Positions 19,625 through 34,117 of a stretch of 64,000 nt of DNA are shown piece after piece. Position 1 is the first letter of the stretch; each line of letters starts with the position of its first letter. The stretch comes from Aquipluma nitroreducens (lineage in GTDB: Bacteria; Bacteroidota; Bacteroidia; Bacteroidales; Prolixibacteraceae), in NCBI RefSeq assembly GCF_009689585.1, contig NZ_AP018694.1, positions 2,681,001 to 2,745,000 of the forward strand, given 5' to 3'. The notes beneath the pieces are model-generated. The model did no database searches. It had not been told where the DNA came from and worked only from the letters and a program-made list of their open reading frames with translations. A program made the position numbers and the translations under genes.

Positions 19625-21082
19625 TTATTCGGGAATTAGCCACCAGAAAGGATAGCCTTTGGCTTTATGAATAAACATATAATGAAGTACGATCTTGATC
19701 CAGTGTCCGGCCAAACCGGCTTCGCCCACTGTATAAGTAAGGTCGCGTCCCCATTGCGGATATTTCTCCCAATCAGGCACAATCGGGAAAACAGTCATCG
19801 TAGCAGCATTGCCTTTGATCATGCCATATCCGGCCGAAACCACGCAAGCAGCACCCATTTTTCCCATCGAGGCTTTGTGTTTGAAATCGGTTCGTCCAGT
19901 TTTTATTCGGTCAACAATATTCAGAGCCACAATCTTTCCAATTACTCCTGAAGGCATCCCGGTGCGTGGAGGGGCTGGGGTGATCAGTGTTCCATTTGGG
20001 CTTTTCATTGGTTTCGAAATCTGATGAGGCGGAGCAAATGCAATTCCAGTGGCAAAAATATTAGAGAAAGCTGGGTTTTGATACGTTGATGGCCAATCCT
20101 CAACCGACCAGTCCTCGAAAGCTTTTCCTGAATAATCAGCATCCACTTTCATGAAACCGCTTGGCGCAAATAACTGTGGAGTAATATCCTCGCCAGCTTT
20201 GTTGAATGCTTTCAATCCGGCGCCGGCAAAAGCTGGAATTAGCATCGCAAAATCGAAGGCGGCAGTTTTCATTTCGCCATCCAAAGTTTCGTAATGTGCA
20301 ATTCCTTCTTCTATTTTGGTTACTCCGGCACGTTTGATCCAACGAATGCCATATTCAGCAAAAATTGATTCGCTGAAAACTTTGGTCGGAGTTACATAAC
20401 CTCCACGCTTGATAAATGCGCCGCCCATTCCGAAGTCGCCCAATTCGTATTCGTTCGAAATCCAGGTAATTTCGGCTTTATCCTGAAGTCCACGGGCTTT
20501 AATCTGGTGAGCTACATTGAGTGCATACTCAAAAGCTGCGCCTTGACAGGTAGCTCCGGGATGACCTGTACCAATGAGGAAACGAAGTTTTTCGCCTTTT
20601 GCCATTCGATCCATGCAACCTTTCAGGGCATCCCAGGTTGCCACTGCATGATCACAAGAGCAAACCGAATGAGTGAACTTTCCGGGTCCGAGGCCTTCGG
20701 TGGCTGCAAAATTTAACTTGGGGCCTGTGGCATTAACAAGATAGTCGTAGTCAACATTTTCGGTTTGTCCCTGACGGGTTTTGTCGGTGTACTCAATGCT
20801 CACATAAGGTCGTCCCAATCCTTCATCACCTTCAGGATAAATGGCTGTAGCTTTGGCCTGCTTGAAATCAATTTTCCAGCGATCGTAAACCGGTTTAAGT
20901 TTGAACCGAACCTGATCGATGGTCATTTTTCCGACGCCAATCCAGATGTTGGAAGGAATCCATTGGTAATATTCTGCGGGACTAACAACAACGACCTGAT
21001 GTTTCGAGCCTAGTTTCTTTTTTATGAATGCCGCAGCAGTGTGACCTGAGATTCCGGCACCCAATACAACAACTTTTGCCAT
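19625..21082 (-). CDS. sulfide:quinone oxidoreductase-like flavoprotein
   Basis: The 485-residue product is read from ATG 21082, where the FAD motif AKVVVLGAGISGHTAA begins; a longer frame upstream has no family support. It shows the SQR-type segments EYYQWIPSNIWIGVG, SVCSCDHAVATWDAL and TGHPGATCQGAAFEYA, which supply the Cys residues expected for the redox centre, and a second FAD site (NIFATGIAFAPP). The C terminus (HYMFIHKAKGYPFWW) could bind the membrane. It should oxidise sulfide or persulfide and reduce quinone. It differs clearly from the shorter SQR-like protein at 9980-11146. Confidence 0.83.
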   Translation of the reverse strand: MAKVVVLGAGISGHTAAAFIKKKLGSKHQVVVVSPAEYYQWIPSNIWIGVGKMTIDQVRFKLKPVYDRWKIDFKQAKATAIYPEGDEGLGRPYVSIEYTDKTRQGQTENVDYDYLVNATGPKLNFAATEGLGPGKFTHSVCSCDHAVATWDALKGCMDRMAKGEKLRFLIGTGHPGATCQGAAFEYALNVAHQIKARGLQDKAEITWISNEYELGDFGMGGAFIKRGGYVTPTKVFSESIFAEYGIRWIKRAGVTKIEEGIAHYETLDGEMKTAAFDFAMLIPAFAGAGLKAFNKAGEDITPQLFAPSGFMKVDADYSGKAFEDWSVEDWPSTYQNPAFSNIFATGIAFAPPHQISKPMKSPNGTLITPAPPRTGMPSGVIGKIVALNIVDRIKTGRTDFKHKASMGKMGAACVVSAGYGMIKGNAATMTVFPIVPDWEKYPQWGRDLTYTVGEAGLAGHWIKIVLHYMFIHKAKGYPFWWLIPE

Positions 21083-22397: not shown

Positions 22398-23321
22398 TTA
22401 CAAAACAGTATGGATAATTACCACTAGTGATAAAACCGAAATGAAAGCCCAAAGTAAGACTCCCTGGATGAGCGGTTTTATGCCGACTGAAGCAACAAGT
22501 TCTTTTGAAAGACTTGACCCGATTAAAAAGAGTGTAATTTTTAGTCCAATTTTTGAAATCACCACGATTGCTGAAGCTTCGGCATGTATGGCTGGCACAA
22601 ACGTGTTGAGCAGCATGGCCAAAACAAAGAGGAAGATAAAATAGGGGATTTTTACCTTTTTTGACTCGCTTTTAAAAACGAACACTGAGATTATGGCCAA
22701 TGGGATAATCCACAAGGCCCTTTCGAGTTTGATGGTGGTGGCTATTTGCAGCGCCTCGGCTCCATATTGATTGGCTGCACCAACCACCGAGCTGGTATCG
22801 TGAATGGCTATGGCTGCCCACACTCCAAATTGATGCTGTGAAAGATGCAAGAGATGACCAATCCATGGGAATAGAAAAAGAGCGACTGAATTCAGAACAA
22901 AAACAGTTCCTAAAGCAGTTGATATTTGTTTTTCGTTCGACTTGATAATCGAAGAAATTGCGGCAATTGCACTTCCCCCGCAAATGGCTGTTCCAGTCGA
23001 AATCAGGTACGATGTGTTGTTTTCAACTTTCAGTCGTTTACCAATTAACAAGCCTAAAGTGAGTGTGGTGACTATTGAAAAGATGGTAAATAAAAGGCCT
23101 TGTTTACCGGCATCGAGCGCTTGCCAGGCATTCATTCCGAAACCCAAACCAACAACCGAAACCTGCAATAAAATATGAGTTAGTTTTTTGCTCGTTTTGT
23201 GAAACGGATGTTTAATGGTTTGTGCCAGGATAATTCCGATGAGTAAGGCAAATGGTGTATCAATAAAAGGGAAGGCGCATATTAGAATAGCTCCAATGTA
23301 GATAATTTTTGGTACGTTCAT
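22398..23321 (-). CDS. YeiH family putative sulfate exporter (UPF0324)
   Basis: The 307-residue product is read from ATG 23321. It has about ten hydrophobic segments and the family features VVGLGFGMNAWQAL, GTAICGGSAIAAISS and AIHDTSSVVGAANQYG. The family is annotated as putative sulfate exporters, though experimental evidence is thin. It lies directly downstream of a LysR regulator, an arrangement common for YeiH. The ChrA gene follows after 43 bases. Confidence 0.87.
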   Translation of the reverse strand: MNVPKIIYIGAILICAFPFIDTPFALLIGIILAQTIKHPFHKTSKKLTHILLQVSVVGLGFGMNAWQALDAGKQGLLFTIFSIVTTLTLGLLIGKRLKVENNTSYLISTGTAICGGSAIAAISSIIKSNEKQISTALGTVFVLNSVALFLFPWIGHLLHLSQHQFGVWAAIAIHDTSSVVGAANQYGAEALQIATTIKLERALWIIPLAIISVFVFKSESKKVKIPYFIFLFVLAMLLNTFVPAIHAEASAIVVISKIGLKITLFLIGSSLSKELVASVGIKPLIQGVLLWAFISVLSLVVIIHTVL

Positions 23322-23397
23322 TCCGACAGATTTTTGTTGTCGCAAACGTAACTCAAAGAAAATCAGTGGTCAAATTGTAAAAAGTTATGCCTGATAA

Positions 23398-24291
23398 CTA
23401 CAAGTTATAGTGCTGTTGAACGAAATTCAGGAATAGCTTGACAAGCCCAACAGGTTCAGGGCCTTGAGGCGAAATGAAATAAAACTGACGGTCAAATTTT
23501 AGGCCTGAAGTGTTAATTAATCTGAAGATATTGTTTGATAATTCCTGCTCTATTGCAAAGCGCGATACAATTCCAACGCCATTGCCTGTTTTTATAAACG
23601 ATTTAATGGCCTCGGTGCTTCCCAAAAACAGCAATACATTCAACTGTTTCGGGCTAACCTGGCTTTGCAGAAGATTTTTTTCGATGATCTCCAGTGTTCC
23701 TGAACCTCTTTCGCGCAGCACCAGTGGAAGTTTCAGAAATTCGTCGTTTGAAACCGGGTTTGGAAGGATTGTGTTTTGTGCCGAGGTAAAGACCAATAGT
23801 TCGTCGTTCAGGAATGAAGAGTACCTGATGTCGGGATTCGAAGGTTTTCCCTCTACAATTCCAATGTCAATTTCGTTTTTCAGTAGGCGTTTTTCAATAG
23901 CTTCGGTATTCCCGTTAATGAGCGATAGCTTTATTTCAGGAAATCGACGGTTGAACTTTGCCAGAGCGGCTGGGATCACATATTGTGATATCGTAGAACT
24001 TGCCCCTATCCGAAGGGCGCCTTCCGGATTTCCGTTGAGTTGGCCTAATTCAAATTTGATTTCGTTGTGTAGCGAAGTGATGCGCTCAGTATAGGCCAGT
24101 AAAATTTCGCCGGCTGTTGTAAGCGATATTTTATTTCCAGTGCGGTTAAAGAGTTTTACCTCATACTCCGATTCCAGCTCTTTAATGTGCTTCGAAATGG
24201 CTGGCTGAGTAATAAACAACTCGTTCGATGCTTTTGTAAAGCTCAAATTCAGCGCAACACTTTGAAAAACTTTTAGTCGGAAATCAACCAT
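23398..24291 (-). CDS. LysR-type transcriptional regulator
   Basis: The 297-residue product has the N-terminal winged helix-turn-helix of LysR regulators (FRLKVFQSVALNLSFTKASNELFITQPAISKHI, in sections) and a substrate-binding domain from about residue 90 (LRIGASSTISQYVIPAAL). The YeiH gene 76 bases downstream is a likely target, as this pair recurs in bacteria. The domain resembles CysB/CbbR-like proteins in general shape only, and the inducer cannot be read. Its start is 19 bases after the DUF5320-like gene, so it is probably part of the UPF0251-led transcript. Confidence 0.92.
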   Translation of the reverse strand: MVDFRLKVFQSVALNLSFTKASNELFITQPAISKHIKELESEYEVKLFNRTGNKISLTTAGEILLAYTERITSLHNEIKFELGQLNGNPEGALRIGASSTISQYVIPAALAKFNRRFPEIKLSLINGNTEAIEKRLLKNEIDIGIVEGKPSNPDIRYSSFLNDELLVFTSAQNTILPNPVSNDEFLKLPLVLRERGSGTLEIIEKNLLQSQVSPKQLNVLLFLGSTEAIKSFIKTGNGVGIVSRFAIEQELSNNIFRLINTSGLKFDRQFYFISPQGPEPVGLVKLFLNFVQQHYNL

Positions 24292-24310
24292 CCGGATGCT
24301 GTTTTATGGA

Positions 24311-24499
24311 TTATTTAATTTTCAAACCGCTTTGTAAACGTTTCCCACGACCTTGCCCGCCACCGGTTCTCCGGCGCAAACCCATGCCTTTCCCTAACTT
24401 TTCAAGCGCTTCTTCTTTGGGTATAATCTGGCATTTCCCCAGTTTCCTGCCTGTTCCTGAATCCTTTTTTTCAGGACCAGTTCCGTCTAATTGTGGCAT
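24311..24499 (-). CDS. DUF5320-like small basic protein
   Basis: The 62-residue product starts MPQLDGTGPEKKDSGTGRKLG and ends with a Gly/Arg/Lys-rich tail (GLRRRTGGGQGRGKR). The DGTGP beginning and Gly-rich, basic tail match small DUF5320-like proteins that commonly travel with NifX-like and UPF0251 genes. It is only eight bases after the NifX-like gene. Its function is unknown; the single Cys (GKCQIIP) does not define a metal site. Confidence 0.7.
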   Translation of the reverse strand: MPQLDGTGPEKKDSGTGRKLGKCQIIPKEEALEKLGKGMGLRRRTGGGQGRGKRLQSGLKIK

Positions 24500-24506
24500 A
24501 TCAAGA

Positions 24507-24830
24507 TTAATTTTTGTGGTTCAACAATTTTATAATTTCACTGATCTTTTTTTCAGGATTATTGAGTACAACAAGTTGAATTTTAAGACTGTCGAAAATG
24601 GATTTTACTTTTGCGCCGAATTCACCCGACACCACTTTTTCGGCGCCTTTTGAGGCAACTAATTGTACAGATGCCTGTCCTGCGCCTTCAACATTTTCTT
24701 TATTTGGGTTTGGAATAAATTCAATTGACTGGCTTATCGTATCGTAAATCACAAAATAAGAGCAACGGCCAAAATGGCTGTCAAGTTTTGATTCGGCGCT
24801 GTTCCCGGTTGATGTAATTGCTACTTTCAT
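24507..24830 (-). CDS. NifX/NifB-like Fe-Mo cofactor-binding domain protein
   Basis: The 107-residue product is a single dinitrogenase iron-molybdenum-cofactor domain, with MKVAITSTGNSAESKLDSHFGRCSYFVIY and a central GEFGAKVKSIFDSL helix region. These domains bind Fe-S or metal clusters. No nitrogenase genes are in the window, so a general cluster-carrier role is more likely than nitrogen fixation. It is 16 bases downstream of the UPF0251 gene. A second member is encoded at 33102-33476. Confidence 0.88.
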   Translation of the reverse strand: MKVAITSTGNSAESKLDSHFGRCSYFVIYDTISQSIEFIPNPNKENVEGAGQASVQLVASKGAEKVVSGEFGAKVKSIFDSLKIQLVVLNNPEKKISEIIKLLNHKN

Positions 24831-24846
24831 CGCGGTTGATTATTTT

Positions 24847-25422
24847 TTAATTACAATTTTCGTTACTTATTCTATGATTGTGAGGAGTTCCTTTTCGCAC
24901 CATTTGGCAATTACAATCCGGACAAATCTCATTTCTGCACGGAGTTGTTGGCAAATGAACCTTTTCGTATCCACACTTTGGACAAATACAAATATCCTCT
25001 GCTGAATTTAACCTGGGGCTCTCATTGTACTGTTCAATATTGGTAGAGCCACAAAGCGTACAATTCTTGACTTCCAGTTCCTTCTCCGGATGATTAAACC
25101 AGCAGCCACAATTTTTGCACGAATACCACTCGGTGTCGAAATATACCTTACCTCCTTCAAAAACAATTGCTTTGCCGTGAACAAAAGCTTGAGCGACTTT
25201 GCGGCGAGCGCTTTCGTAGATACGGGCAAAAGTAGGTCGTGAAACTTCCATGATTTTAGCAGCTTCCACCTGGCCATTAAGTTCAAAATCACTTAGTCGA
25301 ATGGCTTCATACTCCTCGAAATTAATAACGACGGGGTTATTTTCTTCGGGTAACCCAATAGGCCTGAATCCCTTAAAATGAGGAGGATTATTCATTTTAC
25401 GTATTCGCTTTGGTCTTGGCAT
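24847..25422 (-). CDS. UPF0251/DUF134 DNA-binding protein with fused zinc-ribbon
   Basis: The 191-residue product has an N-terminal UPF0251 domain: RPKRIRKMNNPPHFKGF, then EEYEAIRLSDFELNGQVEAA and a helix-turn-helix with VSRPTFARIYESARRK. A Cys-rich region follows (CKNCGCWF, CTLCGS) and a second ribbon (CICPKCGYEK, CPDCNC). The family is thought to be a DNA-binding regulator. Its own promoter carries the palindrome TGAGCATTTGCTCA. A paralogue at 33638-34060 has its second ribbon encoded as a separate overlapping gene. Confidence 0.88.
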   Translation of the reverse strand: MPRPKRIRKMNNPPHFKGFRPIGLPEENNPVVINFEEYEAIRLSDFELNGQVEAAKIMEVSRPTFARIYESARRKVAQAFVHGKAIVFEGGKVYFDTEWYSCKNCGCWFNHPEKELEVKNCTLCGSTNIEQYNESPRLNSAEDICICPKCGYEKVHLPTTPCRNEICPDCNCQMVRKGTPHNHRISNENCN

Positions 25423-25445
25423 AAGTTATTAGCATTTGATTGAAA

Positions 25446-25492
25446 CAAATATAGTGAGCATTTGCTCATTACGATTATATTTTTTACCTTTG
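25446..25492. promoter_or_regulatory. divergent promoters sharing a UPF0251-type palindrome
   Basis: The leftward -7 box is TATATTTG (minus strand, 25446-25453). The rightward -7 box is TACCTTTG (25485-25492), and its -33 TTTG (25461-25464) lies inside the perfect palindrome TGAGCATTTGCTCA (25455-25468). One bound regulator could therefore act on both directions. Near copies are at 30576-30587 and 34104-34117. Confidence 0.7.
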
Positions 25493-25541
25493 ATTTTATT
25501 CAAATGGATAAGTTGATGAATCTAAGCTAAAATTAATCAAA

Positions 25542-25766
25542 ATGAAACATTCGCTGGTAAAATTGCTGCTCATTATTCCAAGTCTCTTTTTTTTAGATTG
25601 GATAATCATGGTTCTGGTTGGATCTGTTTCAAATATTTTCGGTGCAAATGATAATTTTTTCTGTACCATTTATTGCGATTTTGGTATTGCACTGCTTATT
25701 GCAACGATTTTATTTGTTGTGTATCTGATTATTAATCAGAGTTTTCATCACAAAGTGCAAATCTAA
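25542..25766 (+). CDS. small two-pass membrane protein, function unknown
   Basis: The 74-residue product has two hydrophobic segments (about 8-30 and 45-67) with a short loop holding FCTIYCDFG, which includes two Cys. The C terminus is basic. I do not recognise a family. It is divergent from the UPF0251 gene and shares the palindrome-bearing promoter region with it, and the peroxiredoxin-like gene follows after 14 bases. The Cys pair in the loop could have a redox or metal role, but that is only suggested. Confidence 0.7.
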   Translation: MKHSLVKLLLIIPSLFFLDWIIMVLVGSVSNIFGANDNFFCTIYCDFGIALLIATILFVVYLIINQSFHHKVQI

Positions 25767-25780
25767 TCTTGAAATAAAAG

Positions 25781-26452
25781 ATGGATAACTTCTTTTATCT
25801 TCATGAAATTAAGACTTCTCGCATTGGCGACCAGGCTCCTGCATTTAGATCTGTAACAACGCAAGGTACTATCTATTTTCCTGCCGATTATTTTGGCCGA
25901 TGGGTCATTCTATTCAGCTATTCTCCCGATTTTGCTCCTGAATCTACTTCAGTACTTAAGAGGTTAACTGCTGTGCAGAATGACTTTAAAGCGCTTAATT
26001 GTGAAATTATTGGTGTATCGGTTGATGGACTTCGTAGTCTAAAAGCCACATCGCGATCCTTCAAAGAGCGAACGGAGTACAATGGCAGGAAAGATCCCGA
26101 AATAAAAATTCCGCTCATCGAAGATATTACCATGGAGGTGGCCATAAAATATGGGATGATTCCATCAGACGAGAACCATGTGAAATCGGTTCGCTGGGTA
26201 TTTATTATTGATCCACAGTGCATGATCAGAAGTGTAATTAATTCTCCTTTAGCTGTGGGGCTTAATTTTAATGAATTGAAACGCGTAATTGTAGCCCTTC
26301 AAACAGAAGATGCTTTTTGTGATAAAATTACAGCCGTTGAATACGACATTGCTGGTAAACACATTGAAAACCAAATGTTAGGCACGAAATCTCCGAAGTG
26401 GTTTTTGTGCACCAAAGAATTATCGGAAGAAAAAGTGATGAACTCAAATTAA
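25781..26452 (+). CDS. peroxiredoxin-like protein lacking the peroxidatic cysteine
   Basis: The 223-residue product aligns by eye with Prx6/AhpC-type peroxiredoxins: IGDQAPAFRSVTTQG, FGRWVILFSYSPDFAP, then IIGVSVDGLRSL, and a C-terminal arm. The usual motif DFTPVCTTE reads DFAPESTSV here, so the peroxidatic Cys is replaced by Ser. Cys residues occur only later (NCEIIG, PQCMIRS, AFCDK, FLCTK). A conventional peroxidase reaction is therefore unlikely; a structural, sensing or alternative thiol role is possible. It probably shares the palindrome-bearing promoter with the small membrane gene 14 bases upstream. Confidence 0.83.
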   Translation: MDNFFYLHEIKTSRIGDQAPAFRSVTTQGTIYFPADYFGRWVILFSYSPDFAPESTSVLKRLTAVQNDFKALNCEIIGVSVDGLRSLKATSRSFKERTEYNGRKDPEIKIPLIEDITMEVAIKYGMIPSDENHVKSVRWVFIIDPQCMIRSVINSPLAVGLNFNELKRVIVALQTEDAFCDKITAVEYDIAGKHIENQMLGTKSPKWFLCTKELSEEKVMNSN

Positions 26453-26472
26453 AACCAAATAGTAATTTCTAT

Positions 26473-26523
26473 CAGACAAAAATCGGTTACCTCATAAATT
26501 CTGAGATAACCGATTTTTGTCTG
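26473..26523. terminator. bidirectional terminator between convergent genes
   Basis: CAGACAAAAATCGGTTA pairs with TAACCGATTTTTGTCTG, with an inner CTCA/TGAG stem. A- and T-runs on either side allow use on both strands. Confidence 0.85.
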
Positions 26524-26553
26524 GTCATTTAAGTTTAAACCCATCCTGAAACA

Positions 26554-27750
26554 TTAACACCCACCTTTTATTTTTGATGTTTTCACAATCACTGGTTCAG
26601 TCGAATTTTTAAGCGCTTCAACCAATATTTTCATGTCAGTGGCTGCTTTTTGCCTGAAATTATAAGTGTTCAACTCATTTTTGCTTGCATTCGAATCTGG
26701 AGGTGTCAGGTTGGAAAATAAGTTCTTAAAATCCGACGACGATTCGATGAGAATATAATTTTCAGCTTTGCCCAGAAATTGAGCTTTCAAATATCCTTTC
26801 CTGGCAAGTTGTTGATCGTCAGCATAAAAATAGTTTGTTTTGTGTTTTTGATCCAGAATTGTTTTCCATTGCCTGTCAGTCATCTTGTCAAACGGAATAT
26901 TAATCGCAAAAGGCAAATGATAGGCTTTAAAAGCTTCAGGAGAGCGAACATCGATGATATTGGTGCGGTAATAATTATTTACGATCTCTGTTGCCAGCTT
27001 GTCTGCCGGAACTTCCACCGAAGTCAGATCTGAATGAGCGAATGCCTGATTCATTCGGGATTCCAAACGACTGTAGCGATCGGGCATAACGGCGATGACA
27101 ATTAACACAAAAAATGCAAAACCCACAGCCGATACGTAAGCAAGTATGCGCTTTTTGGGTAGTTTCGACTGATCATTGTTTACTCTTTTTTCGATTAAGC
27201 GGGTGAGAAAAAAGGCGATAAATGCAATTGCAGTCAGGAGGAATCCGAACACAATTTTCGACATTCCCAGTTTTTCGTTAATCAGAACCGGTCCCCAGGC
27301 TTCAGCGAGGTATATCTTTTCGAACATCGGGTATCCTTCAGCAAAAGCAATAACGCCAAGTCCCGATCCGAATACAAAAGCCAGGCCGTCAAGTTTTCCA
27401 ATAGAGGCAGCACAAACACTGGTTCCGGGGCAAAAGCCACCAATAATAAAACCCAGCCCCATGATTGCTCCACCAACGAGCGCGGACCAAAGAAATGTAG
27501 GATTGATATAGATCAGGCACAAATCGAGAATTCCCATCTGGCCGAACAACAAGACTCCAATCATGGCGGTTATTCCGGCGGTAAAAAATACTTTAAGCAC
27601 GGTAAAATCGTAGCCGTAGAATAAACCAACCAATTTTTTTGTTGAAGAAAAGCCTGCCTGCTCAAGAGTAAATCCGAAGCCAATTCCGGCAATTAGTGCA
27701 ACGATCAGATTAAATTCATTGCTGATAATATTTGGTACTAATGGTCCCAT
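26554..27750 (-). CDS. YeeE/YedE sulfur-transport protein with C-terminal rhodanese-like domain
   Basis: The 398-residue product is read from ATG 27750; the longer frame upstream overlaps the next YeeE gene and looks unrelated. Residues 1-230 are a YeeE/YedE membrane domain with the conserved GFCPGTSVCA, whose Cys is used for thiosulfate passage in characterised members. After a membrane-edge linker comes a rhodanese-like domain (about 262-350; NIIDVRSPEAF). Its active-site Cys is missing (YFYADDQQLARKGY). The protein ends KIKGGC, with Cys as the last residue. It probably takes up thiosulfate or related sulfur. Confidence 0.83.
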   Translation of the reverse strand: MGPLVPNIISNEFNLIVALIAGIGFGFTLEQAGFSSTKKLVGLFYGYDFTVLKVFFTAGITAMIGVLLFGQMGILDLCLIYINPTFLWSALVGGAIMGLGFIIGGFCPGTSVCAASIGKLDGLAFVFGSGLGVIAFAEGYPMFEKIYLAEAWGPVLINEKLGMSKIVFGFLLTAIAFIAFFLTRLIEKRVNNDQSKLPKKRILAYVSAVGFAFFVLIVIAVMPDRYSRLESRMNQAFAHSDLTSVEVPADKLATEIVNNYYRTNIIDVRSPEAFKAYHLPFAINIPFDKMTDRQWKTILDQKHKTNYFYADDQQLARKGYLKAQFLGKAENYILIESSSDFKNLFSNLTPPDSNASKNELNTYNFRQKAATDMKILVEALKNSTEPVIVKTSKIKGGC

Positions 27751-27755
27751 GTCAA

Positions 27756-28274
27756 TTATTTTAACCAAAGTTTTCTGAATAAATATGCAAAAGAGTAGGC
27801 CGATCCAAAAATGGCGATCATGGTAATGATCCCTCCGAACGACATTACAGCCATTCCACTTAAAGCTGCTCCGCTGGTGCATCCCCGACCAAGTTGCGAG
27901 CCTAAGCCAAAAAGCGCACCTCCAATAATGGCGGCAATTATGCGAGTGCTGTTGGTAATGTTTGGGCCACGCTCTAATTTAATTCCAACCCGGTTCGAAA
28001 TCACGCCGGAAAAGAAAGAACCTATGACAACTCCAATCACTTCCCAAACAAGCCAATCTTTCAATGGTCCTCCGGGATGCTCTTCGTGATACGATTTGAT
28101 GAAAGGTGTATTGGCCGAATGTTGGGGCGCCACCTCAACAACTGAAGTAACAACCACTCTTTTAATTGCGCCACTGGCTCCCAGGCCTCGCCCGGTCACA
28201 TATATTGTTCCGAGCAAAACCAAGCCAAGTAAAAACCCGGCCATATATGGGTTCATGTATTTATTTGGTTTCAT
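27756..28274 (-). CDS. YeeE/YedE family sulfur-transport protein
   Basis: The 172-residue product starts at ATG 28274, overlapping the end of the cytochrome b gene by 14 bases; an alternative ATG is at 28256. It has four or more hydrophobic segments and the conserved GRGCTSGAALSGMA motif of YeeE/YedE half-proteins. A periplasmic-looking loop holds EEHPGGPLKDWLVWEVIG. The next gene starts five bases later, so the two YeeE proteins likely form one pore. The substrate is most likely thiosulfate or another sulfane-sulfur compound, by family knowledge. Confidence 0.83.
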   Translation of the reverse strand: MKPNKYMNPYMAGFLLGLVLLGTIYVTGRGLGASGAIKRVVVTSVVEVAPQHSANTPFIKSYHEEHPGGPLKDWLVWEVIGVVIGSFFSGVISNRVGIKLERGPNITNSTRIIAAIIGGALFGLGSQLGRGCTSGAALSGMAVMSFGGIITMIAIFGSAYSFAYLFRKLWLK

Positions 28275-28902
28275 GATTCTGTATATTTTCGTTTTCATTT
28301 TCTTCAAGTTCCTCGTAGCCGGTAATCATCGCATTGATATTTGATGTTGGTGTCTTTCCGGTTGTCGTCATATAAACATGAACAACAAGAAATATCATCA
28401 GCAAAATTGCCCCCATCGTATGCCAGAACGCGATACTCGCAAGTGGGTAATCTTCAATAACAATCAGATTGTTTTCATCGATTGTTTTATACAGCATGTA
28501 TAAAATTCCGGAGGTAGTTGTTAAGGGAATAAGAATGATTTTAAACCCAAGATAGACAAGTCGTTGCAAAGGATTTAGTTTGCTAAGTTCTGACTTTTGA
28601 GTCGGATGGTGTTCACCTTTAAATATTCCGGAAATATAGAATTGAATCTGCTCTTTTAATTGTTTCGTGGTGGGGATGTATTGCCGCCATTCGCCCGTTG
28701 TCAGGTGCCAAAAGATGGCAAAAATCAGCAATCCTATTAGCATCCACGAAGCAACGCGGTGATATTCTGTTGCTTTTTCGAACCCAAATATGGAATATGA
28801 ACCATGGACTTCGAATCCGGTTACAGCCAGAAACATGATGAGCGAAGCTTGTGTCCAGTGCCAAAGGCGTTCGAAACCTTTATAAATATATACTTTACGC
28901 AT
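28261..28902 (-). CDS. membrane cytochrome b (FdnI/b561-like) subunit
   Basis: The 213-residue product has four hydrophobic helices with haem-ligand-type histidines: LWHWTQASLIMFLAVTGFEVHG, HRVASWMLIGLL with FWHLTTG, and FWHTMGAILLMIFLVVHVYM. This is the pattern of cytochrome b subunits of formate dehydrogenase, hydrogenase and thiosulfate reductase. It should exchange electrons between quinol and the octaheme cytochrome c encoded 45 bases upstream. Together they could form a quinol-linked tetrathionate or sulfur-oxyanion reductase. Confidence 0.85.
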   Translation of the reverse strand: MRKVYIYKGFERLWHWTQASLIMFLAVTGFEVHGSYSIFGFEKATEYHRVASWMLIGLLIFAIFWHLTTGEWRQYIPTTKQLKEQIQFYISGIFKGEHHPTQKSELSKLNPLQRLVYLGFKIILIPLTTTSGILYMLYKTIDENNLIVIEDYPLASIAFWHTMGAILLMIFLVVHVYMTTTGKTPTSNINAMITGYEELEENENENIQNHETK

Positions 28903-28947
28903 AGCTTATCTATATTATACTAGTAATCTGATAGTTCATTTATTGAG

Positions 28948-30552
28948 TTATTCCGAAGGCTTATCATCGTCATAATTGATGATTTGCTTTTCGTATTTAT
29001 TCCTTCTGATCAATACAAAAATCCGAATCAAAGCATGACCCATTACTGCGGCAAGCGTTAGGAAAAATGCCCAAATCCCTATGCTATCCTGAACAACATT
29101 TCGGTCACGGCCAGGAAGATAAAATCCGGTTAATTTGGCCAGACGACCGTTATCTCTGGTATGACATTCCGCACAACTTACTGATTGTTCTTTTGGAGAA
29201 ACCATGTGGTTTACAGGCCAGTACATCACAGTTTCAACAAAACCGTACTGTCCGCTGTATTTTAGTCCTGATGTTTTCATTCCGGCGGCAACTGCTTTTT
29301 CCCAGTTAAAATCTTTCCAGAATGCGCTATCGCCTTCGGCATCGCCATAAAGTTTGGGCTGCACCAGTCGGTTATAAACCTTGTCGTAGATCTGATCGCC
29401 AACATGAATTTTTACCGGGATGATTTTTGAATGACGATCACTGTATGAGCCATTTAATGTATTCATTTTTACAGGAATCGATTGAATAGTGTCCCCGAGC
29501 AAATAATGGTCGGCCGTGCCGTTAAACCACATATAATCTGGTTTAACATTTCGCTCCCAAACAAACGAACCTTTTATCGACATATAATTGTGGTTGCCCA
29601 GCGAATCCTCTTCTTCGTAAGGTTTGCCATCTTTCAATTTTCCGGCATCAGACCATTTCCACGACATTTTTGTTGAATTTACCTTGGCATACTGCGGAAT
29701 ATGACATGCCTGACACGAAACCCTTGAACCATGGCGATTAAGTACTTCACGAAGGTGTGGGGTTGAAGTATGACATTGCTCGCAGGTGGCTCGATCGGTA
29801 TTGTCAGAGGAAACCGAATATAATTTGCCTATAATTTTGTGATTTTTAGCAGTGTGACAGGCAATGCACTCCATGTTCATACCATTGGCTCCCATGTGAA
29901 CATCGACATCGCGGCTGCAAGAGTTTAATGCAACATCGAGATCTCCATGTTTTACATTGTTTCCACCACCGCCAAACGAGTGGCACGATCCACAATTGCT
30001 TTTGCGAGGAGAACCTACACTTCGTGCCACGTTTTCAAGGTTTACCGTCCGGTCGGGATATCCTGCCATTGAAGCTCCTTTCAGGTATTCCTCGCTGTTG
30101 TCGTGACACACCATGCAATCAACATTCCGTGCATTGTTAAAATCAAATTGGCTGCTGGTCATCCCGTAACCAATGTGGCATTTGGCGCACGACTGTTCGT
30201 TGGAATTCGTCCCGATACAAAAGTTATTCATCACGTTTTTCTTTCCTACCGACGAAATACCACGCCCCTCAACATACGATGCCCGTTCCCAATTCCAATG
30301 CGATGATGCCATTACCTCTTTGTGTGTTTCGGTATGACAGGAAAGGCAAGCTTCTGTTACCTCCTGCGGAGTTTTAAATTCCTTTTGCAGGGCTGGAAGT
30401 TTACTGTGATTAACAGAAGGAACAGCTTTTAATGCATAGTTGTGCTTCAGTTCTTCTAATTTGAGGTTATAATTATCGTCTCTGTGGAGTATGTTTACCA
30501 TTACCAGCGCGATAATGACAACAAAAATTACAAGTATCAGATTCCTTTGCAT
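28948..30552 (-). CDS. octaheme c-type cytochrome, tetrathionate reductase (Otr) type
   Basis: The 534-residue product is read from ATG 30552. An N-terminal hydrophobic anchor or signal (NLILVIFVVIIALVMVNIL) exports it. Eight CxxCH motifs are visible in order: CLSCH, CAKCH, CMVCH, CGSCH, CIACH, CEQCH, CQACH and CAECH. A C-terminal helix (GIWAFFLTLAAVMGHALI) can bind the membrane. The haem number and layout match the octaheme tetrathionate reductase family, which can also reduce nitrite or hydroxylamine in vitro. With the cytochrome b and YeeE genes downstream, a role in sulfur-compound respiration is likely. A UPF0251-type palindrome precedes it. Confidence 0.87.
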   Translation of the reverse strand: MQRNLILVIFVVIIALVMVNILHRDDNYNLKLEELKHNYALKAVPSVNHSKLPALQKEFKTPQEVTEACLSCHTETHKEVMASSHWNWERASYVEGRGISSVGKKNVMNNFCIGTNSNEQSCAKCHIGYGMTSSQFDFNNARNVDCMVCHDNSEEYLKGASMAGYPDRTVNLENVARSVGSPRKSNCGSCHSFGGGGNNVKHGDLDVALNSCSRDVDVHMGANGMNMECIACHTAKNHKIIGKLYSVSSDNTDRATCEQCHTSTPHLREVLNRHGSRVSCQACHIPQYAKVNSTKMSWKWSDAGKLKDGKPYEEEDSLGNHNYMSIKGSFVWERNVKPDYMWFNGTADHYLLGDTIQSIPVKMNTLNGSYSDRHSKIIPVKIHVGDQIYDKVYNRLVQPKLYGDAEGDSAFWKDFNWEKAVAAGMKTSGLKYSGQYGFVETVMYWPVNHMVSPKEQSVSCAECHTRDNGRLAKLTGFYLPGRDRNVVQDSIGIWAFFLTLAAVMGHALIRIFVLIRRNKYEKQIINYDDDKPSE

Positions 30553-30575
30553 AACATTTTTATATTGCAAATAAC

Positions 30576-30611
30576 GAGCATTTGCTCATTATAATTAAAA
30601 ATGCAAATATA
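30576..30611 (-). promoter_or_regulatory. promoter of the octaheme cytochrome operon with UPF0251-type palindrome
   Basis: TATATTTG (minus strand, 30604-30611) is a -7 box. GAGCATTTGCTC at 30576-30587, the core of the palindrome near the UPF0251 gene, lies just downstream of the predicted transcription start and could block elongation. Confidence 0.65.
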
Positions 30612-30772
30612 ATAATATATCAATACATGGAAAGTTAATATTGAAAAATTACCTGTTTTAATAAAAAAAGTTGAGTTTTACTTGTCCATTTACAAATAAG
30701 AATAATTCAGGAAGGATATGGACTTGTTAATTCTAATTGCGGTAATAAATGGTAGTCGCATTGAAAATTAAT

Positions 30773-30826
30773 GCATAAAAAAACTGATCAAATAAATAAA
30801 CGACTGGTTTACTCATTTGATCAGTT
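30773..30826 (-). terminator. terminator after the thioredoxin lipoprotein
   Basis: AACTGATCAAAT (30782-30793) and ATTTGATCAGTT (30815-30826) are exact inverse arms. On the minus strand the hairpin is followed by a T run, so it ends the transcript from the thioredoxin gene and separates it from the cytochrome operon. Apart from this and the promoter, 30588-30875 holds no gene. Confidence 0.75.
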
Positions 30827-30875
30827 GTATGTTTCAGGCTTCTTTCCTGATTATGCTTTTGATTTGCATCTGGTT

Positions 30876-31349
30876 TTAATCAACCAGTAAAACTTCATGA
30901 ATTGCTTTCACAAGTGTTTCTTTTGGCAAGGCGCCCATGGTTGCCTGAGGTTGACCTTTAACGGGAATAAACAATAGGGTTGGCAAACTTTGAATTCCCA
31001 TATTTTGCGCGAGCAATTGTTCGGCATCGGTATCAACTTTATAAACGATGATCTTTCCGGCGTATTCTTTCGCAATTTCCTCTACCCGAGGCGACAGTTG
31101 TCTGCAAGGGCCGCACCAACTGGCATAAAAGTCAATAATTACGGGCAGGTTGCCTTCGAATTTCCATTCTTTATTCACCTCGTAATTAAAAATTTTCTGC
31201 TTAAAAATCTCGTTTGTCAAAATATTCACTGCTCCAACTCCTGTGGTGGATGTGACAGCGTTACTCTTTGTTTTTTCAGGATTACCTGCATTACAGTTGC
31301 TTAGTAATAGCACTAACCCAAGCGATATAAATATTACAACTTTCTTCAT
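30876..31349 (-). CDS. thioredoxin-domain lipoprotein
   Basis: The 157-residue product is read from ATG 31349. A lipoprotein signal ends LLLSNC, and a thioredoxin domain follows with FYASWCGPCRQLSP and cis-Pro in QSLPTLLFI. It should act on the outer face of a membrane, reducing disulfides or maturing cytochromes. The DUF6132 gene lies 26 bases upstream. The nearby octaheme cytochrome c could be a client, since its eight CxxCH sites must be kept reduced for haem attachment. Confidence 0.9.
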   Translation of the reverse strand: MKKVVIFISLGLVLLLSNCNAGNPEKTKSNAVTSTTGVGAVNILTNEIFKQKIFNYEVNKEWKFEGNLPVIIDFYASWCGPCRQLSPRVEEIAKEYAGKIIVYKVDTDAEQLLAQNMGIQSLPTLLFIPVKGQPQATMGALPKETLVKAIHEVLLVD

Positions 31350-31375
31350 GATCTTATTTTTATTGATTTCTTTAA

Positions 31376-31621
31376 TTAGCATCTACCTCTGGCGCAAGGA
31401 CTGTTCACCAAAAAGTAACCCATCGCACCACCCCAGATGGTACTCATATACGGACTGCTTGTAATGGCGCAGGTTCCTGAAGAACATCCAACAAAATGAT
31501 AGTACGAAAATCCGGCGATGGCTCCAATGGTCACACTTAAAAATGGTCTCCAGAATTTCCAGGTTTTAAGATTCTCTTTGAATGTTCCCGGGTTTGGTTT
31601 AATTTCACAATTGTTTTCCAT
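31376..31621 (-). CDS. DUF6132 family small membrane protein
   Basis: The 81-residue product is read from ATG 31621; an upstream extension looks non-native. It has two hydrophobic segments and the Cys-bearing sequence HFVGCSSGTCAITSSPYMS between them, which matches the DUF6132 pattern. It ends GYFLVNSPCARGRC, with two more Cys. The role is unknown, though the family often stands near thioredoxin or YeeE-type sulfur genes, as here. Confidence 0.75.
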   Translation of the reverse strand: MENNCEIKPNPGTFKENLKTWKFWRPFLSVTIGAIAGFSYYHFVGCSSGTCAITSSPYMSTIWGGAMGYFLVNSPCARGRC

Positions 31622-31678
31622 GACACGTTTCTTAATTGTTTGACAGCAAAAATAGTAATAAAACAGATTAAATCGCAT

Positions 31679-31723
31679 TAGTGACACTTAAATCTTTATA
31701 GTGACACTATTTTTTTACATTTG
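31679..31723 (+). promoter_or_regulatory. promoter with paired TAGTGACACT sites ahead of the zinc-ribbon gene
   Basis: TAGTGACACT occurs at 31679-31688 and 31699-31708, 20 bases apart. The second is part of the palindrome ATAGTG-A-CACTAT (31698-31710). TACATTTG at 31716-31723 is a -7 box. Two sites two helical turns apart suggest cooperative binding of a regulator. Confidence 0.55.
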
Positions 31724-31742
31724 CACCGCATAAAATTAATTT

Positions 31743-32177
31743 ATGAGCGTAATATTCAGTAATAGCCTTAGTCCTGAACAGCTTGAAGAGATGTTCAGAA
31801 ATGATGAAAAGTGTCTCGAATTTTTAGCCGGGATAAAATGGGCAAATGGTTTTGTATGCAAAAAATGTGGGAATACGAATTCTTGTGCCGGAAAAGAGCC
31901 GTTTTCGCGACGCTGTACCAAATGTAAGGCCAAAGAAACCGCGACTAATGGCACCGTTTTTCATGGCGTAAAATTTCCGATCAGCAAAGCTTTTTACATC
32001 GCTTATCAGGTTTGCAAAGGGAAGGAGGATGTTTCATCGTATGAGTTTGGCCGCCGACTTTCGTTGCGCCAAATGACATGCTGGAACTTCAAGACCAAAA
32101 TACAGCATGCACTCGAAGAAATGGATTCGCTCACCGAAAATGAACGAAACTCAATGGAGAAGATTTTAACAAGTTGA
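31743..32177 (+). CDS. stand-alone zinc-ribbon/HTH protein related to IS1595-type transposase N termini
   Basis: The 144-residue product has a zinc ribbon (CKKCGNTNSC, then CTKCKAKETATNGTVFHG) followed by a helical region (SLRQMTCWNFKTKIQHALEEM) like the helix-turn-helix of IS1595-family transposases. The catalytic DDE domain is absent, and the gene ends cleanly after the helix. No inverted terminal repeats or target duplication were seen. It may be a transposase-derived DNA-binding regulator; the paired sites in its promoter could be its own. A decayed transposase is the alternative. Confidence 0.7.
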   Translation: MSVIFSNSLSPEQLEEMFRNDEKCLEFLAGIKWANGFVCKKCGNTNSCAGKEPFSRRCTKCKAKETATNGTVFHGVKFPISKAFYIAYQVCKGKEDVSSYEFGRRLSLRQMTCWNFKTKIQHALEEMDSLTENERNSMEKILTS

Positions 32178-32185
32178 TGCCTCTT

Positions 32186-32335
32186 TTACCGAACCGGATA
32201 CACTTCCATACTACCGCACGAAGGGCAAACTTCAACTTTATCGCTTCCGGAGCAAGTATCCACATCTTCCCAGTCGACTTCTTCGGCTGGTCCCTGCCAA
32301 TTGCACTTCTTGCATTTCAGAATAGTTGATTCCAT
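32186..32335 (-). CDS. 49-residue zinc-ribbon protein
   Basis: A complete frame runs from ATG (complement of 32333-32335) to TAA (32186-32188). The product has CKKCNWQG near its start and CPSCGSMEVYPV near its end, a two-knuckle zinc ribbon, with an acidic middle and one extra Cys. It begins nine bases after the methyltransferase gene on the same strand, so the two are probably co-transcribed. A function such as nucleic-acid or protein binding cannot be chosen. Confidence 0.7.
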   Translation of the reverse strand: MESTILKCKKCNWQGPAEEVDWEDVDTCSGSDKVEVCPSCGSMEVYPVR

Positions 32336-32344
32336 GCGGCTGGA

Positions 32345-32944
32345 TTATTTTTGGCCTACCAGTAAAAATACCGGGTATTTGGCGCCCGACTCACGTTTAA
32401 CCTCGAAGCAAGTTTTGTATTGAATATTCTTAAAACCGGTGATTTTCAAGATTTCAGTTAGTTTGTTGGGATCAAAACCCAGGTGAACTTTGACTTCTGG
32501 ACCATGAAACGAACCATCTTCAGGATATAAATCGGCAATGGCCAAATATCCTGATGGATTCAACATGGAATAAAAAGTACCGATAATACTTTCATAATCA
32601 CCCACGTGGTGTAATACCATCTGATTGTAAATGATGTCGAAATTTCCATCATAATCTTTGTGTTCCAGATCGAACCAAATGGGCAGAATGTGATTGGTTT
32701 GGAAGAATTCAGTCTTCTCGGTACACACTTTGATCATTTCCTGGGAATTATCCATCAGGGTAATTTCCGAAAACCGATCTTTCAGCAGAAAACTGAGGAT
32801 TCCTGTCCCTGCTCCATATTCAAGAGCTTTCATGGAAGGGGAGAGGGGGATCATCTTTTCGAGTTCAGCAGCAATGGCTACCGAACGATCCATGTGCATT
32901 TTATCTTTGTCCCACTCACGGGCTCGGGCATCAAATTCGCTCAT
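32345..32944 (-). CDS. class I SAM-dependent methyltransferase
   Basis: The 199-residue product has motif I ALEYGAGTGILSF for SAM binding, an acidic residue after the second strand (ITLMDNSQEM) and FDIIYNQMVLHHV as motif IV, the small-molecule methyltransferase pattern (Methyltransf_11/25). The length is normal. The substrate cannot be read. The N terminus (EFDARAREWDKDKMHMDRS) resembles methyltransferases near arsenic, tellurite or thiol genes, but this is weak. A perfect tandem 17-base repeat lies upstream at 32977-33010. Confidence 0.88.
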   Translation of the reverse strand: MSEFDARAREWDKDKMHMDRSVAIAAELEKMIPLSPSMKALEYGAGTGILSFLLKDRFSEITLMDNSQEMIKVCTEKTEFFQTNHILPIWFDLEHKDYDGNFDIIYNQMVLHHVGDYESIIGTFYSMLNPSGYLAIADLYPEDGSFHGPEVKVHLGFDPNKLTEILKITGFKNIQYKTCFEVKRESGAKYPVFLLVGQK

Positions 32945-32976
32945 TATGTTTTATCTTAATCGGTGAATACAATCAA

Positions 32977-33010
32977 TATCGGTTTTCTTACCTTATCGGT
33001 TTTCTTACCT
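32977..33010. repeat. perfect tandem 17-base repeat upstream of the methyltransferase
   Basis: The unit TATCGGTTTTCTTACCT occurs twice in direct succession (32977-32993 and 32994-33010), between the methyltransferase start (32944) and the NifX-like gene end (33102). It could be a pair of binding sites or a slippage product. Confidence 0.75.
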
Positions 33011-33101
33011 TTTTTACAAGCAATGATAGTAACAGGCGAAACCAATTTTTGATTTCGATAAAGAAAACTAATTTTTGAATCGACTCCACATCAAATCCAT
33101 A

Positions 33102-33476
33102 TTAATGTGAGCACTGATGTTCTTCTCCTTCATGCTCATGATGTGCACAACCTATACCGGAATCGCCTATTTTGCCTTCTAAAAATGACTCGGCTAATAT
33201 ACGCACATTGCCCGAACAACCGCGATAAACATCAATTCCATGTCGGTTAAGTACATTTAATGCACCACCGCCCATGTTTCCTGCAAGCATAACAGTTATC
33301 CCCATTTCTTTCAAGACAGAAGCGATATTGCTTTTACAACCACAACCTTGTGGCGAGGGCAATAATTCGGCTTTTTCAATTTTATTACTTGCATCAACGG
33401 TAAAAATGGTGTATGCTTCGCAATGACCAAAATGGTCATCAACATTATTTCCCCTTGTTGGTACTGCTACTTTCAT
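33102..33476 (-). CDS. NifX/NifB-like cofactor-binding domain protein with His/Cys tail
   Basis: The 124-residue product has the dinitrogenase cofactor-domain pattern (MKVAVPTRGNNVDDHFGHC, CGCKSNIAS, GNMGGGALNVL, YRGCSG). Its C-terminal tail is rich in His, Glu and Cys (CAHHEHEGEEHQCSH), a likely metal-binding end not present in the paralogue at 24507-24830. The start ATG has a good AGGAG upstream. It overlaps the zinc-ribbon gene by 32 bases. A metal- or cluster-carrier role is inferred from the family. Confidence 0.88.
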   Translation of the reverse strand: MKVAVPTRGNNVDDHFGHCEAYTIFTVDASNKIEKAELLPSPQGCGCKSNIASVLKEMGITVMLAGNMGGGALNVLNRHGIDVYRGCSGNVRILAESFLEGKIGDSGIGCAHHEHEGEEHQCSH

Positions 33477-33651
33477 GATTTATTTCTCCTAATTTTTGTA
33501 AATATAACTGGTGGTGATAACTTCCTTCCCTCATCATTTTTTTGCCACATTGCGGGCACAGTGTTTCTCGACACGGAGTCCCTTCTGCATGTAAGAACCT
33601 CGAATTACAATGCACACAAATACAATATCCATTACAATCAGTTTGTTCCAT
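33445..33651 (-). CDS. zinc-ribbon protein, detached C-terminal part of a UPF0251 protein
   Basis: The 68-residue product has CICVHC and CPQCGKK, and matches by eye the second ribbon of the UPF0251 protein at 24847-25422 (CICPKCGYEK, PCRNEICPDC). It starts in a 14-base overlap with the end of the UPF0251 gene upstream, in another frame, and ends in a 32-base overlap with the NifX-like gene. It may be made by translational coupling, as a separate protein, or represent an old frameshift of a once-fused gene. Confidence 0.7.
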   Translation of the reverse strand: MEQTDCNGYCICVHCNSRFLHAEGTPCRETLCPQCGKKMMREGSYHHQLYLQKLGEINHESSSTNKGK

Positions 33652-34060
33652 TGGTCTCGATCGTTTTGTTTAGCCTGCGCAAGGTTTTCGATTGGCAGTA
33701 GTTGCAGGTATTTATTTCGGTCTGGCAAATATTCAATTTCATACAGTTGTCGCATCGGTACCAGCATTCTTCGGTGTGGTAATTTCCACCTTCAATAAAA
33801 ATGGCTTTTCCTTCAACAAATGCCTTCGCAATGGTTCGTCTGGCCTTTTCATAAATTCGGGTAAATGTCGGGCGTGAAACGTTCATGTGTTCAGACGATT
33901 GTTCCTGAGTAAGTCCCTCATAGTCTGATAATCTGATCGATTCATATTCTTCGTACAACAAAATAACCGGCTCTAAATTTGTCATCGGAATCCCGAATGG
34001 TTTAAATCCTTCCATGACGGGAGGATTGACAATCGATCGATTCCGCTTCGGCCTGGCCAT
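33638..34060 (-). CDS. UPF0251/DUF134 DNA-binding protein, second copy
   Basis: The 140-residue product has the UPF0251 start (RPKRNRSIVNPPVMEGFKPFG), EEYESIRLSDYEGLTQEQSSE and the recognition helix VSRPTFTRIYEKARRT. A Cys-rich knuckle pair ends it (CDNC, CNYC). It is parallel to the 191-residue paralogue but lacks the final ribbon, which is encoded separately in the next overlapping frame. Its promoter has a near copy of the same palindrome. The two paralogues may share or compete for sites. Confidence 0.87.
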   Translation of the reverse strand: MARPKRNRSIVNPPVMEGFKPFGIPMTNLEPVILLYEEYESIRLSDYEGLTQEQSSEHMNVSRPTFTRIYEKARRTIAKAFVEGKAIFIEGGNYHTEECWYRCDNCMKLNICQTEINTCNYCQSKTLRRLNKTIETNGTN

Positions 34061-34085
34061 GCTAATTATTTTAATTCTGTCGAAG

Positions 34086-34117
34086 CAAAAGTATAAATAA
34101 TAATGAACAAATGCTCA
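34086..34117 (-). promoter_or_regulatory. promoter of the second UPF0251 operon with palindrome
   Basis: TACTTTTG (minus strand, 34086-34093) is a -7 box. TGAACAAATGCTCA at 34104-34117 differs from the palindrome at 25455-25468 by one arm mismatch (on the minus strand TGAGCATTTGTTCA) and lies in the spacer between -33 and -7. Confidence 0.65.

Follow-up and report, generated by a model that had tools for sequence, protein, structure and literature searches.

The palindrome ATAATGARCANNTGYTCATTAT very probably represents the operator of the autoregulatory repressors of the DUF134/UPF0251 family and, in a 64,000-nt stretch of the 5.71-Mb genome of Aquipluma nitroreducens (the window, whose coordinates are used below), also that of an operon coding for an octaheme cytochrome, a cytochrome b561-type subunit and YeeE-type proteins. 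Three such sites are found in the window. First, predicted operator 1, TGAGCATTTGCTCA (25455–25468, in a 22-bp site at 25451–25472), is common to the promoter of the gene for DUF134-1 (24847–25422, minus strand) and that of a divergent membrane protein/peroxiredoxin-like pair. It lies 1 nt from the −7 box of DUF134-1, TATATTTG (25446–25453, minus strand), with the −7 box of the divergent pair, TACCTTTG, at 25485–25492 on the plus strand; a weak second site (25429–25442, 3.8 bits) is placed 26 bp closer to the DUF134-1 start, on the opposite side of its −7 box. Second, predicted operator 2, CGAGCATTTGCTCA (30575–30588, with the core GAGCATTTGCTC at 30576–30587), precedes the octaheme operon, 15 nt downstream of a −7 box that again reads TATATTTG (30604–30611, minus strand). 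Third, predicted operator 3, TGAACAAATGCTCA (34104–34117), precedes the gene for DUF134-2 (33638–34060, minus strand), 10 nt from its −7 box, TACTTTTG (34086–34093, minus strand). A first-pass annotation of this DNA had reported the three palindromes, −7 boxes of the form TAnnTTTG near each, and their placement before two UPF0251 genes and the cytochrome operon. Direct reading of the sequence confirms the positions and the boxes, and the gene assignments agree: both regulators match PF02001 (6.6e-23 and 2.4e-24, or 81.6 and 86.2 bits against a cut-off of 27; the family is also COG1342), and the cytochrome (28948–30555, minus strand) matches TIGR04315 (5e-173, 576 bits against a cut-off of 375). 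DUF134-1 and DUF134-2 are the only two proteins of the family found in the entire genome.

The three window palindromes are real and not products of chance. A loose pattern with two mismatches shows no enrichment in the window (13 found against 10.45 expected), so the analysis turned to closer matches and to a matrix. Genome-wide, GAGCANNTGCTC occurs in 7 places (five of them not at DUF134 genes) against 1 for the reversed control, TGARCAWWTGYTCA in 3 against 0 (sites 1 and 3 and position 5590473), and sequences within one mismatch of TGARCANNTGYTCA in 52 against 16; over 100 genomes of the family, TGARCAWWTGYTCA is found 69 times against 10. A 22-bp matrix, for which 21 distinct sites preceding DUF134 genes of other genomes served as input, ranks operators 3, 2 and 1 first in the window with 28.1, 27.9 and 26.1 bits and the fourth site at 8.2 bits, a ranking that is not fully independent, since the training sites were picked because they differed from the reported consensus at no more than one position; only the flanks and the presence of the sites are therefore independent of the finding. 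The genome-wide search stopped at one mismatch, and the matrix was applied to 40 of the 52 places. Behind the three window sites (26.1–28.1 bits) come an exact TGAACACTTGTTCA at 22.6 bits (L265, G000:C1:2824471), which is inside a 918-codon frame past its first ATG, and places with 15.4 (L288, no long frame), 15.1 and 15.0 (L013 and L012, inside long frames) and 13.8 bits (L295, no long frame), the rest being lower. The exact TGAACATATGTTCA at 5590473 (L266) scores 10.2 bits and also lies inside a long open frame past the first ATG. We take the L265 and L266 sites to be non-functional, and the regulon visible in this genome appears to be local, with three promoters within 8.7 kb. For comparison, 6.4 Mb of first-order random sequence yielded 33 sites of at least 13 bits, with a maximum of 18.8 and none reaching 20.

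We then investigated the DNA upstream of DUF134 genes across the family, where 82 of 100 genomes code for a DUF134 protein (80 above the cut-off); 118 of the 127 match rows were used, with the nine weakest omitted, and upstream DNA was obtained for 98 genes, including the window's own two. In many clades, a palindrome starts 18–69 nt before the start codon, just upstream of a TAnnTTTG box, and two classes can be distinguished, namely class A (TGARCANNTGYTCA-like) and class B (TGAGAATATTCTCA). A match to TGARCANNTGYTCA with at most one mismatch within 110 nt upstream was found for 25 of the 60 DUF134 genes of other genomes that are not linked to aroC, compared to a mean of 0.06 of 60 in dinucleotide shuffles, none for the reversed pattern and none among 36 aroC-linked genes. 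When a matrix score of at least 13 bits or a class B sequence with no more than one mismatch was accepted, sites were counted for 47 of the 62 genes not linked to aroC, 36 of class A and 11 of class B (two of the latter, G031:C31 and G012:C155, being class B by sequence). The scattering of the motif at random, which the first-pass annotation had named among the outcomes that would refute it, was not borne out. It is hardly credible that the sites are chance palindromes or reflect promoter composition with no dedicated protein: the A+T-richness of promoter regions and the unenriched loose pattern would fit such an origin, but the excess over shuffles, the random sequence free of any site of 20 bits and site positions that are fixed across genera all speak against it.

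The promoters also show a recurrent spacing. When 40 DUF134 promoters were searched for second sites above 5 bits near the main one, the offset of +26 was seen in 10 of 39 and that of −26 in 3 of 40, with −29 among the other leading offsets in one case; the operators of a 26-bp-spaced pair flank the −7 box. In five loci (L131, L134, L137, L139 and L123), the region between a divergent pair of DUF134 genes has a class A-like operator (TGAACATATGTTCA or a variant) for one gene and a class B operator (TGAGAATATTCTCA) for the other, which suggests that the two are paralogues with separate specificities.

The octaheme cytochrome was found in 36 of the 100 family genomes (40 loci), and 31 loci were examined. 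The operator is kept before the octaheme gene in 11 of 12 close orthologues, and scores of 18.1–31.3 bits were obtained at all ten loci (nine genomes) where a PKRIR[KR]M-type DUF134 is assembled, counts that are not independent because the loci are related by descent. The more distant loci number 19; of these, G072 reaches 19.2 bits, four are at 12.6–14.5 and 14 are lower. The operator starts 11–17 nt after a TA(T/C)ATTTG box in 10 of 11 octaheme loci, with exactly 15 nt in seven; the exception is G007, where the nearest −7 box is poorer. At four loci, the promoter lies between this operator and another one placed 64 bp further upstream. An operator past the −7 box and a pair straddling the promoter favor repression. 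This geometry bears on the alternative that DUF134 acts from the palindrome as an activator, for instance in the MerR-like fashion of a protein bound between the −33 and −7 boxes. The site directly upstream of the −7 box at DUF134 promoters would suit such an activator, but the octaheme site, mostly 15 nt downstream of the box, and the pairs that straddle the −7 box or promoter have the geometry of a repressor, and we regard activation as unlikely.

Beyond the family, 28 of 80 genomes drawn across the phylum have a DUF134 match (26 above the cut-off), and 26 loci were read, with some second copies in genomes of family f16 not included. Such a palindrome is present in ten of these (TGAGCATATGCTCA four times, TGTGCATATGCACA twice, and TGAGCATACGCTCA, TGAACATAAGTTCA, TGAGAATATTCTCA and TTGGCATATGCTAA). 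TTGGCATATGCTAA belongs to L264, the second DUF134 gene of one f16 genome, and the other 16 of the 17 f16 genes read have no operator. A survey of plasmids returned 189 records with a DUF134 match, and of 12 plasmid-borne genes read, ten have a palindrome with a CANNTG core. Those of Clostridia and Negativicutes feature a TTGACATATGTCAA-like palindrome containing TTGACA, which may be a −35 box; those of Treponema have TGACAAATGTCA twice; and those of Gammaproteobacteria have TGGCATATGCCA-like palindromes, mostly paired. The Parabacteroides plasmid gene is preceded by TGAGCATTTGCTCA, the same as site 1 of the window, and the Acetoanaerobium gene by an imperfect site; the upstream DNA read for the Salinivibrio plasmid gene has no such palindrome. 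No relative of DUF134 was found in the phage and viral collections searched.

A score of 13 bits is reached at 22 of the 748 control gene starts within the loci that were read; these include octaheme cytochromes, NifX-like, DUF5320 and 1-Cys peroxiredoxin genes and three mis-started DUF134 genes. Ten candidate targets could be named by Pfam: NifX-like (L058, L080), DUF5320 (L069), ARMT1-like (L167), 1-Cys peroxiredoxin (L049), 4HBT (L084), ferredoxin-domain (L176), glyoxalase-like (L165) and ferritin-like (L051; 155 nt away and divergent) proteins, and the product of 19625–21079 in the window. They form a list and not a rate because the motif or DUF134 had been the criterion for selecting the loci. 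The targets elsewhere also point to NifX-like, ferritin-like and peroxiredoxin genes, beyond sulfur respiration.

These targets help to weigh whether another regulator owns the palindrome, be it a LexA-like protein with a GAACNNNNGTTC-type box, a SorC/DeoR-type protein or the neighboring LysR. Boxes of the GAACNNNNGTTC type are LexA-like in Gram-positive bacteria, and TGAACATATGTTCA resembles such a box; the right half-operator of DeoR itself contains TTTACATATGTTCAA, and many exact sites in the family are away from DUF134 genes. Against this, the window sites are of the GAGC...GCTC or a mixed form, the variants TGAGAATATTCTCA, TTGACATATGTCAA and TTGGCATATGCCA vary with the type of DUF134 and yet remain before DUF134 genes, and the ten Pfam-named targets are not repair genes. 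Further, there is no site before the LysR or YeiH genes in the window, since 8.2 bits is the highest score among the remaining window sites. We therefore consider a different owner very improbable, and DUF134 itself remains the preferred binding protein.

The DNA-binding part of DUF134 offers a possible structural basis for this recognition. An AlphaFold model, good for the helix-turn-helix (HTH) core only (mean predicted local distance difference test 66, predicted template modeling score 0.38), places this core close to region 4 of Sigma-70 and domain 4 of ECF sigma factors and, in Foldseek, to the DNA-binding domain of DeoR (root-mean-square deviation 0.7 over 40 columns, but with an E-value of 0.12). 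A sequence search found no solved structure of the DUF134 family; among solved structures, the HTH part of DUF134-2 retrieved only Bacillus subtilis DeoR (SorC/DeoR family; 7bhy, 8r7y), in a 36-residue local match with a weak E-value of 0.023. In this match, the helix NISRPTVSR of DeoR (NISRPTVSRLL) aligns with NVSRPTFTR of DUF134-2. According to its structural description (PMC11229326), DeoR has the left half-site TTGAACA, was crystallized with the half-operator ATTGAACAAAATTTCAAT, and contacts T14 and G4 through R39, at limited resolution. By our own count, a 14-bp frame in the left half-operator is bounded by TGAA and TTCA, as in the window sites, and R34 and R39 (allowing for a six-residue tag) would be the two arginines of SRPTVSR and would correspond to R62 and R67 of DUF134-1, both of which are invariant in our alignment A1. 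The likeness between the families is confined to the HTH, where sequence similarity is weak. Unlike DeoR, DUF134 has no sugar-phosphate effector domain (only PF02001 was found in the 140- and 191-residue window proteins); in place of this domain there is a Cys-rich tail, together with a NifX-like gene as partner.

The same helix appears to hold part of a protein–DNA code. Among 136 DUF134 proteins, of those with the second helix arginine 27 have a G-type site and one a T-type site, with 96 unclassified, and of those lacking it 11 have a T-type (TTGRCA-like) site and none a G-type site, with one that has neither. That the outer operator base follows this one arginine is a strong lead and not a test, because the T-type pattern was written after the plasmid sites had been seen and the split largely follows phyla, with L264 as the exception. 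A simpler rule, by which SRPT would specify class A and SRAT class B, failed: a class B site occurs together with SRPT in G001:C33, G037:C23 and L257, and TGAGCATATGCTCA together with SRAT in L254, L256, L258 and L259.

Together with the partial dependence of the matrix on the reported consensus and the caveats on the arginine, several observations weigh against the proposed role of the palindrome. First, 36 of the 98 DUF134 genes lie directly behind aroC without an operator of their own, forming one clade (SH-aLRT 95) in a tree of few columns and many open forks. No site of at least 13 bits was found before aroC in the 34 upstream regions read from this clade, and five of these (G062, G029, G077, G008 and G010) have a TGATWATNNGTTCA-like stretch of 9.1–10.8 bits. 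Second, a further 15 non-aroC-linked genes fall below the criteria, some with visible but uncounted variants, and 16 of the 26 phylum loci, all from f16 genomes (L237–L241, L243–L253), have no such palindrome, L249 and L251 showing unrelated palindromes only. Third, of the 69 exact sites in the 100 genomes, 16 are right upstream of a DUF134 gene and 11 within 15 kb of one, leaving 42 that are not near such a gene (about 10 being expected from the reversed control). A lack of conservation near UPF0251 orthologues, which the first-pass annotation had also named as refuting its idea, was not borne out, with the aroC-linked and f16 genes as exceptions. Fourth, G007 has 29.9 bits before its octaheme gene with no PKRIR[KR]M-type DUF134 found, and G018 has just 6.6 bits with a DUF134 present but split over two contig ends; the interpretation of G018 as a genome that lost the regulator was dropped in view of this split. 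Finally, the DeoR match of DUF134-2 is weak, a search of solved structures with the whole DUF134-1 sequence did not find DeoR, and it was not among the 50 VIA rows listed.

From the sites, their conservation and their geometry, we infer that a DUF134 dimer binds ATAATGARCANNTGYTCATTAT through the recognition helix SRPTxxR, with one TGARCA half-site per monomer, and represses its own gene from an operator immediately before the −7 box; certain genomes carry another copy 26 bp away, which places the box between the two. In the window, DUF134-1 and DUF134-2 would share three promoters, namely their own two, of which that of DUF134-1 is shared with the divergent pair, and that of the octaheme operon, where the operator would lie just past the predicted start, at roughly +10 to +25, as in a roadblock. 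Each DUF134 is probably co-transcribed with a NifX-like protein. The signal can only be guessed at; it might be a redox, metal, Fe-S or sulfur state sensed through the Cys-rich tail, the NifX-like partner or both. The autoregulation and octaheme control proposed in the first-pass annotation are well supported by conservation among genera and phyla, operator geometry and the residue–base match to DeoR. For sulfur-compound respiration as the regulated process, we infer no more than is suggested by an octaheme protein of the tetrathionate reductase family placed beside YeeE-type transporters and a rhodanese.

The octaheme c-type cytochrome also matches PDB 1sp3 (4.3e-123), and eight CxxCH motifs were counted by eye; tetrathionate reduction by it is putative, from family membership (TIGR04315). 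PMC12142623 describes nitrite reduction by other octaheme cytochromes. The window cytochrome is followed on the minus strand by the b561-type membrane subunit (28261–28902; PF01292, 9.6e-24), a YeeE/YedE-type sulfur transport protein (27756–28274; PF04143, 1.1e-18) and a YeeE-type protein fused to a rhodanese domain (26554–27750; PF04143 and PF00581). DUF134-1, with its Cys-rich C-terminal part, is accompanied on the same strand by a NifX-like (Nitro_FeMo-Co) protein (24507–24830; PF02579, 8.9e-16) and a small open reading frame (ORF), DUF5320-like by eye (24311–24499), and DUF134-2 by a small Cys-rich ORF, zinc-ribbon-like by eye (33445–33651), and a NifX-like protein (33102–33476; PF02579, 2.7e-20). 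The divergent pair on the plus strand comprises a small hydrophobic protein with no Pfam match (25542–25766) and the peroxiredoxin-like protein (25781–26452; PF00578, 1.5e-21). The latter has PDFAPESTSVL where its relative L049:7001-7714 has ADFTPVCTSEF, and the peroxidatic cysteine seems to be replaced by serine, judging from the letters compared by eye. A cluster of LysR, YeiH, DUF134 and NifX-like genes like that at 22398–25422 is found in Peptoclostridium (L146), and genes for anion/sulfite exporters (TauE/SafE, SLAC1) are near DUF134 in L152, L153 and L156.

In the literature searched, which did not extend to subscription papers or regulon databases, we found no paper on an operator, regulon or autoregulation of DUF134/UPF0251 and none containing the six operator strings. 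Autoregulation by HTH repressors is already known from other systems; what appears to be new is the DUF134 operator and code. They give a testable function, an operator and a partial regulon to a conserved family that is still annotated as of unknown function and that occurs in anaerobes and on enterobacterial plasmids, and they assign a defined, if predicted, regulator to the octaheme/b561/YeeE operon in these Bacteroidota. More tentatively, and with somewhat more doubt than confidence, DUF134 may be a bacteria-wide family of autoregulatory repressors, with archaeal members too, that has a readable protein–DNA code and senses with NifX-like cluster-binding proteins. If so, the arginine ending the SRxTxxR helix would read an outer G (TGARCA, TGAGAA, TGTGCA), with TTGRCA in its absence, and the family would sense Fe-S, sulfur or redox state and govern cytochrome, NifX-like, ferritin-like and peroxiredoxin genes.

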